Positions 10,946 to 14,200 of a stretch of 64,000 nucleotides of DNA are shown in pieces. A model generated the notes under the pieces. That model had not been told where the DNA came from. It worked only from the letters and a program-made list of their open reading frames with translations, and made no database searches. How positions within the stretch are numbered: position 1 is the stretch's first letter; each line of letters opens with the position of its first letter. Origin of the DNA: Ruminococcus sp. (GTDB lineage Bacteria; Bacillota; Clostridia; Oscillospirales; Ruminococcaceae); contig JAJQIH010000015.1 of NCBI GenBank assembly GCA_021199305.1, positions 1 through 64,000 on the forward strand, given 5' to 3'. Position numbers and translations under genes: made by a program.

Positions 10946-10978
10946 ATCCGCCTGCAATAATTTGCAGGCGGATTTTTT
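10946..10978 (+). terminator. Rho-independent terminator of purL
   Basis: A 12-bp perfect stem (ATCCGCCTGCAA, 10946-10957, with 10962-10973) and a TAAT loop are followed by a run of six T. Confidence 0.93.
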
Positions 10979-11056
10979 GTGTCTGATTTTACTACCTGTC
11001 ATTTTCTATTCCTGCTTTTCATATTTATTAAAAAACGAAAGCAAGGAGAGAAAGCT

Positions 11057-12235
11057 ATGAAAAGAAGGATATTTATCTGTCTTGCGACGATGATTTTTAT
11101 GATGAATTTCCTGAACATTTACTGTCTGGCTGACGGCGGGGAGGACAGCGTTTACGCTTTAAAAGGCCAGGATACTCTTTCGGTGTCTGCAAGCAGCTAT
11201 GTGATACTTGAAACCAGCACAAATACCTTTCTGGCGGGGCAAGGCTCTTATGAGGAGTTTCCTGCTTCTCATTTTACAAAGCTTATGACACTCACGCTTG
11301 TCTGCGAGAAAATTGACGAGGGAAAGCTGTCGCTTGACGATACGGTAACTGTAAGCGAGTACGCAAATTCTCAGCAGGGTACGCAAATCTGGCTTGATAA
11401 GGGAGAAAAGATAACGGTTTCAGAGCTTATAAAAGCGGTAACAATAGGAAACGCTAACGACGCTTGCGTAGCACTAAGCGAAACGGTAGACAAGAAAATT
11501 TCCGATTTTGTTGAGCGTATGAACAAGCGAGCGGCCGAGCTTCAGATGATAAATACAGTCTATGTCGATTGCACGGGCGTTTCAAACGACAATATAACGA
11601 CAGCTCACGATACGGCTCTTTTAGCATCGGAGCTTTTAAAGCATGAGTATCTGGCAGAATACTTAACTGCGTGGAGGGATTTTGTCGGCGAAAAGCAGTC
11701 GGAGGTAGTAAATCAGAATACGCTTGTCAAAAGCTACGACGGAATTACAGGGCTGAAGGCTTGCATCAGTTCCACGGGAGTTAATATGACAAGCGTCAGC
11801 GCCAAAAGGGGAGAGATGAGCGTTGTATGCGTTGCAATAGGCTCAGAAAGCAGTGAGCAAAGAGCAGCTGACGGAGAAAATATGCTTGACTACGCGTTTT
11901 CGCAGTTTCAGATTTACGAGCCTGAAATTGACAAAGCTCTGCTTGATGATATAAAAATTGTTCACGGCGAGGATGAGAGCGTTAAGGTTTCTCTTTACAA
12001 GCCTTTGCGACTTGTCATAAAAAGAGGTACCTCCCCGGAACTTGATGTTACAGCAACCAGAGAGCAAAGCGTCACTGCGCCAAAGAAAAAGGGCGATAAG
12101 GTTGGAAGCGTAACCGTTACAAACGGCGAAAAGACAGTTTTTTCAACAGATATTGTGCTTTGCGACGATGCTGAAAAGATAACTGTCAGCAAAGCGTTTT
12201 TCAAGCTTATATATTCTCTTATTGGAGAAATATGA
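11057..12235 (+). CDS. D-alanyl-D-alanine carboxypeptidase homologue (PBP5/DacF-like) with altered catalytic motifs
   Basis: A 392-residue exported peptidase-S11-like protein with a signal peptide at 1-28 (MKRRIF, hydrophobic core, YCLA). The penicillin-binding domain aligns well with PBP5-type enzymes, but each catalytic motif is off. SxxK reads SHFTK, so Ser71 and Lys75 are one residue too far apart. SxN reads NAN (132-134), in GNANDACVAL where family members have SGNDAC. KTG reads ITG (230-232). A PBP5_C-like beta domain ends the protein, but no long C-terminal amphipathic anchor is evident. It is probably inactive or mechanistically changed, and may bind peptidoglycan without cleaving it. 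The start at 11057 has AAGGAGAG at 11043-11050; upstream codons run into the purL terminator. Confidence 0.85.
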   Translation: MKRRIFICLATMIFMMNFLNIYCLADGGEDSVYALKGQDTLSVSASSYVILETSTNTFLAGQGSYEEFPASHFTKLMTLTLVCEKIDEGKLSLDDTVTVSEYANSQQGTQIWLDKGEKITVSELIKAVTIGNANDACVALSETVDKKISDFVERMNKRAAELQMINTVYVDCTGVSNDNITTAHDTALLASELLKHEYLAEYLTAWRDFVGEKQSEVVNQNTLVKSYDGITGLKACISSTGVNMTSVSAKRGEMSVVCVAIGSESSEQRAADGENMLDYAFSQFQIYEPEIDKALLDDIKIVHGEDESVKVSLYKPLRLVIKRGTSPELDVTATREQSVTAPKKKGDKVGSVTVTNGEKTVFSTDIVLCDDAEKITVSKAFFKLIYSLIGEI

Positions 12236-12378: not shown

Positions 12379-13710
12379 GTGGCTGTAAAGTTAAACACAA
12401 AATATCTTGAGGGAGTTATTTCAGCTCACGAGCTTGACGGAGTCAAGTCGCAAATAACTGCTGCTCATAATTTGATTGAAACAAGATCAGGACAGGGGAA
12501 TGATTTTCTCGGCTGGGTTGATCTTCCAGTAGATTATGACAAGGAGGAGTTTGCAAGAATCAAGGCTGCTGCCAAAAGGATTCAGGACAAGGCTGACATT
12601 CTGATTGTTATCGGAATCGGCGGTTCCTATCTCGGCGCAAGAGCTGCTATCGAGCTTTTGAAATCCCCGTTTTACAATAATATGAAGAAGGACACGCCTG
12701 ACATCTATTATGTTGGTAACAGCATCAGTCCTACCTACTTAAACGAAGTTCTTTCTATCTGCGAGGGCAAGGATATTTGCGTAAATGTTATTTCAAAGTC
12801 AGGAACTACTACTGAGCCTGCTCTGGCATTCAGAATTTTCAAAAAGCTTGTTGAGGACAAGTATGGCAAGGAAGAAGCAAAGGAGAGAATCTTTGCTACT
12901 ACCGATAAGGCAAGAGGAACTTTAAAGGAGCTTTCCGACAAGGAAGGCTATGAAACCTTTACTATTGCCGACGACGTTGGCGGAAGATTTTCCGTTCTGA
13001 CTGCCGTTGGACTGCTGCCGATTGCAGTTGCAGGCTGTGATATTGACAAGATTATGCAGGGCGCAGCAAAGGCAAGAGAAAACTATTCAAAGGACGATTT
13101 GAACGACTGCTATAAGTATGCAGCTATCAGAAACATTCTTTACCGCAAGGGCAAAAGCGTTGAAATGCTCGTTTCTTACGATCCAAGCTTTACAATGATG
13201 GCTGAATGGTTCAAGCAGCTTTTCGGCGAGAGCGAGGGCAAGGACAACAAGGGTATCTTCCCATCCTCCGCTACATTCTCTACCGACCTTCACTCTTTAG
13301 GTCAGTTTATTCAGGACGGCTCAAGAGTAATGTTTGAAACGGTTGTTGACATCAAGACTCCGAAGCAGGATTTGTTCTTAGAAAGCGACGAGCAGAATCT
13401 TGACGGCTTAAACTTCCTGTCAAACCAGAATATGTCCGTTGTAAACAGAAAGGCTTTTGAGGGAACTATTTTAGCTCACACAGAGGGCGGAGTTCCAAAC
13501 ATCGTTATCGAGGTTGACGCATTAGACGAGGAAAACTTCGGAGAGCTTGTTTACTTCTTTGAAAAGGCTTGCGCAATTTCTGGATATATGCTTGGAGTTA
13601 ATCCATTCAATCAGCCGGGAGTTGAAAGCTATAAGAAGAATATGTTCGCACTTTTAGGAAAGCCTGGCTATGAGGATGCCAAGGCAGCACTTGAAGAAAA
13701 GCTTAAATAA
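12379..13710 (+). CDS. pgi: glucose-6-phosphate isomerase
   Basis: Interconverts glucose-6-phosphate and fructose-6-phosphate in the cytoplasm. It has 443 residues, the length of the short Firmicutes form. Visible signatures are [17 protein letters not shown], the sugar-phosphate site [36 protein letters not shown], the catalytic Glu region [12 protein letters not shown], and a C-terminal [12 protein letters not shown] motif with the catalytic Lys. Translation starts at a GTG (12379) preceded by AAAGGA at 12364-12369. It has its own promoter. Confidence 0.96.
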
Positions 13711-13795
13711 GGCGCAAACAGGGCAACCTGTAAAAATATTATCGGGATTATTCCCTAAATAAAAAATGCCCGAAGGGGCGGATTGGAGCGTAATT

Positions 13796-14200
13796 ATGAT
13801 TAAAATTATCACTGGAAAAAGAGGAACGGGAAAGACCAAGATCTTGGTTGATAACATTGTAGAGGCTGCTGAAAACGCAACAGGAAACGTAGTTTGTATC
13901 GAAAGAGGAATGAAGCTTACTTATGATATTCCTCACAAGGTAAGACTTGTTGACACCGAGGAGTATGGAATTACTGGATACGACGCATTTTATGGCTTCG
14001 TTACAGGAATGCTTGCTGGAAACTATGATATTCAGGAAGTTTTCGTTGACGGAATTTTAAAAATCGGCGGAAGAAATTACGATGAGCTGGGCGCTATGTT
14101 TGAAAAGCTCGCTATGGTTGCAAAGGACGTAGTAGTTACATTTACTGTATCTGCTGACCTTGATGAGCTTCCTGCAAAGGTAAAGGCGTTTATCAAGTAA
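13796..14200 (+). CDS. small P-loop ATPase-like protein, function unknown
   Basis: A 134-residue protein with an N-terminal Walker A motif GKRGTGKT (residues 7-14), directly after a beta strand MIKIIT. A second strand-like stretch, IQEVFVDGILKIGG, may provide the Walker B acid. DVVVTFTVSADLDELP near the end resembles a sensor strand. No signal peptide or membrane segment is present. It is too short for a full RecA or AAA domain. The start at 13796 follows GGAG at 13785-13788. It lies 85 bp after pgi and just before the yceD-rpmF promoter. Clostridial genomes carry similar short proteins annotated as predicted ATPases; no role is established that I know of. Confidence 0.75.
   Translation: MIKIITGKRGTGKTKILVDNIVEAAENATGNVVCIERGMKLTYDIPHKVRLVDTEEYGITGYDAFYGFVTGMLAGNYDIQEVFVDGILKIGGRNYDELGAMFEKLAMVAKDVVVTFTVSADLDELPAKVKAFIK

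Follow-up and report, generated by a model that had tools for sequence, protein, structure and literature searches.

What does a bacterium keep when it keeps a D,D-carboxypeptidase whose catalytic motifs have gone? The question is raised by one gene in a 64,000-nucleotide stretch of Ruminococcus sp. DNA, which is referred to here as the window. The gene is an intact open reading frame on the forward strand (11057-12235), with an ATG start codon and the ribosome-binding site AAGGAGAG, and it encodes a protein of 392 amino acids with the following features:

11057..12235, forward strand: secreted 392-aa protein of the Peptidase_S11/PBP5 fold without catalytic motifs (domain search, structure model)
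11057..11134, forward strand: signal peptide, aa 1 to about 26 (sequence MKRRIFICLATMIFMMNFLNIYCLADG; model helix 2-18, then a low-confidence linker)
12185..12223, forward strand: C-terminal amphipathic helix, aa 377-389, probable membrane anchor (model helix)

Membership of the Peptidase_S11/PBP5 fold is supported by both domain searches and structure prediction. In the Pfam search, Peptidase_S11 (PF00768) was matched at aa 40-264 with 140.8 bits against a cut-off of 27.6, and a PBP5_C domain was found at aa 297-373. An AlphaFold (AF2) model, built from 62 sequences (the window protein and its relatives), has a mean pLDDT of 92.8, and the closest solved structure to it is P. aeruginosa PBP5 (4k91; Z 38.5, 339 residues aligned, rmsd 3.2); a comparison with PBP5, suggested by an earlier interpretation of the DNA (the sequence-only reading), thus returns the PBP5 fold for the predicted structure. 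The nearest solved relatives are the PBP5/PBP6 D,D-carboxypeptidases (MEROPS S11; E. coli DacA/DacC; P. aeruginosa PBP5), with which the protein shares the full-length fold, the S11 and PBP5_C domains, the signal peptide and the C-terminal helix, the last of which is a probable membrane anchor by analogy with PBP5-type proteins. It differs from these enzymes in that the SxxK Ser, the SxN Ser and the KTG Thr-Gly are absent.

An active D,D-carboxypeptidase carries the nucleophilic Ser of SxxK, together with SxN and KTG or KSG, and in the window protein all three are missing. The motif sites were placed using profile alignment and the secondary structure of the model (a helix from 71, a loop at 132-133 and a strand from 234):

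11270..11281, forward strand: motif 1 site, H72-F-T-K75 replacing S-x-T-K (alignment)
11450..11458, forward strand: motif 2 site, N132-A-N134 replacing S-x-N (alignment)
11756..11764, forward strand: motif 3 site, K234-A-C236 replacing K-T-G (alignment)

When a profile of the clade to which the protein belongs (described below) was aligned with one of 13 active orthologues (100%, E 2e-126, gapless near the motifs), His72 fell on the invariant Ser and Lys75 on the Lys of the active proteins, N132 on the SxN Ser, and A235-C236 on the Thr-Gly of KTG. Ser72, Ser132, Thr235 and Gly236 have therefore been replaced, whilst Lys75, Asn134 and Lys234 are retained. The sequence-only reading had proposed that all three motifs were changed, and it was right that none stands at its active-site position and that NAN occupies 132-134; its SHFTK spacing and its ITG motif were misalignments. 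SHFTK as SxxK with an inserted residue, the arrangement also obtained when phmmer opens a gap at motif 1 against H. influenzae PBP5, is ruled out by the gapless profile alignment and by relatives that retain the serine: Ser71 aligns with the Ala of the usual P-A-S, and the Ser-retaining clade members have Ser at column 72 and Gly at 71 (GSMNK, GSLAK, GSQTK, GSFNK). The ITG at 230-232 is likewise ruled out as the third motif, being the G-x-x-G run upstream of it (G-C-N-G-L-K-T-G in active proteins). A pattern scan of the whole protein found no replacement set of SxxK, SxN and KTG: the sole S..K lies within the C-terminal domain, at S312, the sole SxN is at S54, and K[TS]G is absent. The sequence thus strongly suggests that catalysis has been lost.

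As to whether an intact enzyme is encoded elsewhere in the genome, two other S11 genes were found with SxxK and KTG intact, and because they keep these motifs catalysis appears to be covered elsewhere. One lies in scpA-scpB-ytfJ and fits a forespore DacF; in C. difficile, dacF is under the control of sigma-G (PMC3789822). The genome's other S11 protein (L233:6360-7730, reverse strand; the same gene in L002) has an intact SxxK and KTG and reads S-A-C in place of SxN, as do its counterparts in every congener read. Three congeners alone (G001, G010 and G013) carry a fourth S11 protein, which is very long (about 770-780 aa); in L201, which encodes a protein of this type, motif 2 is SGC and SxxK and KTG are intact.

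The inactivated version is a property of the lineage. In motif-blind searches of relatives, every genome of the genus that was sampled (15/15: that of the window and 14 congeners) carried it, as (H/Y)xTK, NAN and KAC, and NxN was found in ten further genera of the family, with KTG lost wherever that part could be read. A further sample added at least 13 genera, so that orthologues with the same kinds of change, which the sequence-only reading had advised seeking, are present in at least 23 genera beyond that of the window. Outside the family, every orthologue read had normal motifs. A scan of named genomes returned 80 loci, with the motifs missing in all except L102 and with the cultured Ruminococcus bicirculans 80/3, Ruminococcus sp. 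YE71 and Marseille-P6503 among the motif-less loci; as the scan used the pattern GNANDA it is biased to NxN, and it is taken for diversity only. No report of a pseudo-PBP or pseudo-carboxypeptidase in this clade was found in the open-access literature, to which the search was confined.

In a tree of 126 proteins, from which the motif columns were left out (a quick method, with SH-aLRT and no bootstrap), all 62 NxN proteins group together in a single clade (SH-aLRT 97). Its sister is the half-changed L020, with Ser, SAN and KTA (support 94), and the order of events would be one in which SxN and KTG were lost first and the Ser site drifted or was re-used later. Catalysis was probably lost a single time, before the members of this large clade of the Ruminococcus family diverged.

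The genomic neighbourhood connects active and inactive forms. Two features flank the gene:

12379..13710, forward strand: pgi, downstream neighbour conserved for active and inactive orthologues (neighbourhood comparison)
10947..10978, forward strand: inverted repeat and T6, likely purL terminator, which parts the gene from the upstream gene (sequence)

Among loci with enough flanking sequence, the next gene downstream is pgi, in the same orientation, in 94/95 of the inactive and 21/25 of the active cases; beyond it come a gene for a P-loop protein and then yceD, der, plsY and gpsA. This shared position before pgi indicates that the active and inactive forms are the same gene and not a spare duplicate. 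Normal motifs in sister species would have spoken against a selected change; they are not seen within the genus, and their occurrence in the same-position gene of more distant genera shows descent from an active enzyme. The P-loop gene (13766-14200, forward strand) encodes a 144-aa protein with GKRGTGKT and no Pfam hit, and almost every clade locus has it in this place, between pgi and yceD.

A role in sporulation, which was absent from the proposals of the sequence-only reading, is supported by two lines of evidence, the first of which is co-loss with SpoIVA, used here as the sole sporulation marker. Across 198 family genomes at least 90% complete, and with the orthologue scored as present at a best E below 1e-29 (paralogues in genomes that were read scored about 1e-27 or worse), 177 had both genes, 14 had neither and 3 + 4 were discordant (Fisher 2e-15, shared ancestry ignored). 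Thus 14/17 SpoIVA-less genomes have no orthologue; the three with an orthologue and no SpoIVA are all in at least 150 contigs, and the reverse was seen in four. Within a genus, co-loss can affect one species while the others retain both genes, and the remaining copies are of the inactive (NxN) type in g111, g116 and g127 and active in g4 and g101. By this one marker, the presence of the gene tracks that of sporulation genes. Loss of sporulation in the clade is ruled out, since SpoIVA is present across the genus as well as in R. bicirculans, YE71 and Marseille-P6503. A search for PdaA did not separate active from inactive lineages; in the domain search, the best PdaA-like match has one in-frame stop in G001, G006, G019 and G033 and none in the window genome, which could be a real break or the natural protein end.

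The second line of evidence comes from the upstream region, which was scanned with the B. subtilis sigma-E consensus GKMATATT-N13..15-CATACAHT:

10998..11027, forward strand: sigma-E-like promoter GTCATTTT-N14-CATATTTA, 12/16 matches, 59 bases upstream of the ATG (consensus scan)

The score of the window gene's own site is weak alone, and it is the enrichment across orthologues that is significant. Sites with at least 13/16 matches were found upstream of 10/61 inactive and 15/53 active orthologues, as compared with 0.9 and 1.0 in dinucleotide shuffles, and upstream of pgi in 0/61. The known sigma-E target spoIIIAA gave 5/29 at the same threshold against 0.8 expected, with a mean shift similar to that of the gene's orthologues, and its site in the window genome is GTCATAAT-N14-CATACTAT at -58. 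Scans upstream of the orthologues with sigma-A, F, G and K consensus sequences showed little or no enrichment. The spoIVA upstream region was tried as a positive control and was uninformative, the region being coding. A sigma-E logo derived from mapped promoters has been described (PMC517825).

It could instead be argued that the protein is a conserved pseudoenzyme of vegetative wall maintenance and that the link to SpoIVA reflects general genome reduction. Indeed, several of the genomes without both genes are small (G115, 0.7 Mb; G128, 0.9 Mb; G188, 0.8 Mb), and the neighbours of the gene are housekeeping genes. However, co-loss is also seen in large genomes that are 100% complete, namely G130 (2.3 Mb) and G135 (3.8 Mb), whose siblings keep both genes, and the enrichment of sigma-E-like promoters also stands against a vegetative role, which is considered unlikely.

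Conservation around the former active site bears on a different alternative, namely that Lys75, Asn134 and Lys234, together with His/Tyr/Thr72, form a new active site with another nucleophile or substrate and that the protein is still catalytic. The three retained residues are invariant in 62/62 clade members, and Lys75 and Lys234 lie outside the search patterns; Asn104, Gly131 and Asn132 are near-fixed in the clade and variable or different in active orthologues, the near-fixation of Gly131 and Asn132 being partly due to the search pattern. The invariance of Lys75, Asn134 and Lys234 exceeds the needs of a purely structural shell and may reflect ligand binding or remaining chemistry. Fixation would be expected of a new active site, whereas column 72 holds H in 45, T in 10, S in 4 and Y in 3 of the 62 members (and A additionally in genus g116), and site 236 varies between C, G, Y, F, S and W. 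Arg269 is likely the carboxylate-binding Arg when the sequence is aligned to PBP5 numbering, and its count drops from 56/62 to 34/62 in the clade. An altered enzyme therefore seems distinctly unlikely. In the minority of the clade that keeps Ser at 72, total inactivity is less sure. A broader possibility, that these residues make a catalytic or ligand-sensing site unlike that of any known S11 protein, with which the mother cell would read or modify spore peptidoglycan, is regarded as improbable.

A third possibility is that catalysis became unneeded and the gene is a slowly dying, functionless remnant. The inactive proteins do evolve faster than active orthologues at equal Pgi divergence, with a median identity of 35% as compared with 52% where Pgi is 70-75% identical. 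Against decay, dN/dS between the window gene and a 92%-identical orthologue is 0.11 (NG86) or 0.15 (YN00), with other close pairs similar, the frames are open in about 95 loci, the gene is retained in at least 24 genera, and it is lost mostly together with SpoIVA. Constraint is relaxed but real, and decay is very unlikely. Motif loss is clade-wide and accompanied by purifying selection, and with intact frames, shared kinds of change among orthologues and intact S11 paralogues the earlier proposal of a selected pseudoenzyme is well supported. The frame, signal peptide and S11 fold are intact as it held. Its premise that the three motifs alone were hit is not right: the whole protein evolves much faster than its active orthologues, and the conserved His of active orthologues (column 179) and Arg269 are also lost or relaxed. 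Its further idea of a decoy unreactive towards beta-lactams, taken here to include a sink, has the missing nucleophile in its favour and nothing more, and is of negligible probability, as a protein without reactivity cannot trap covalently, no resistance context was seen and the association is with sporulation.

The account that we consider likely is therefore that a mother-cell sporulation D,D-carboxypeptidase became a conserved pseudoenzyme that binds or scaffolds. The ancestral gene would have encoded a sporulation-linked, mother-cell-type enzyme of the PBP5 fold (S11), which presumably lost catalysis in the ancestor of the clade and was kept as a pseudoenzyme. Sigma-E would direct synthesis of the protein in the mother cell, the signal peptide would direct its export and the C-terminal amphipathic helix would anchor it to the membrane. 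We infer that its site of action is the peptidoglycan layer surrounding the forespore and that it works there by binding, not by removing D-Ala. Candidate ligands are the stem peptide or a partner in wall synthesis or wall lysis.

Known systems offer partial parallels. DacB (PBP5*) of B. subtilis is a sigma-E-dependent cortex carboxypeptidase of the mother cell (PMC517825; Popham 1995 as cited in PMC8745062), and dacB-spmAB is among the sigma-E genes required for cortex formation (PMC517825). The window gene shares with it the S11 fold, the sporulation link and a putative sigma-E-like promoter; however, DacB has catalytic activity and its gene shares an operon with spmA and spmB, whereas the inactive-looking window gene has pgi downstream and purL and a likely terminator upstream, and DacB (3mfd) matches the window sequence more weakly than Gram-negative PBP5 does. 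SpoIIQ has a LytM domain without the metal-binding His in Bacillus that is intact in C. difficile (PMC4982068), and so is also a sporulation protein with a peptidoglycan-hydrolase fold that one lineage keeps intact and that in another is inactivated without loss of function; it differs in its unrelated fold (M23), its production in the forespore and its known partner, SpoIIIAH. EnvC and Csd2 are degenerate LytM proteins (PMC5053510), dead peptidoglycan hydrolases kept as activators or partners, although again of an unrelated fold and acting in vegetative division or cell shape.

Dead peptidoglycan hydrolases that serve as partners are known mainly from the LytM/M23 fold (SpoIIQ, EnvC, Csd2). 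The present protein is found in cultured bacteria of the gut, among them Ruminococcus bicirculans 80/3, and annotation by S11 domain alone would label it there as an active enzyme. Here a carboxypeptidase-class PBP appears dead across a whole clade, its sister is half-changed, its positional orthologues include active forms and the gene is linked to sporulation. Together these make up a natural series, and this series lets one ask what part, other than cutting, a carboxypeptidase plays in the assembly of the spore wall.
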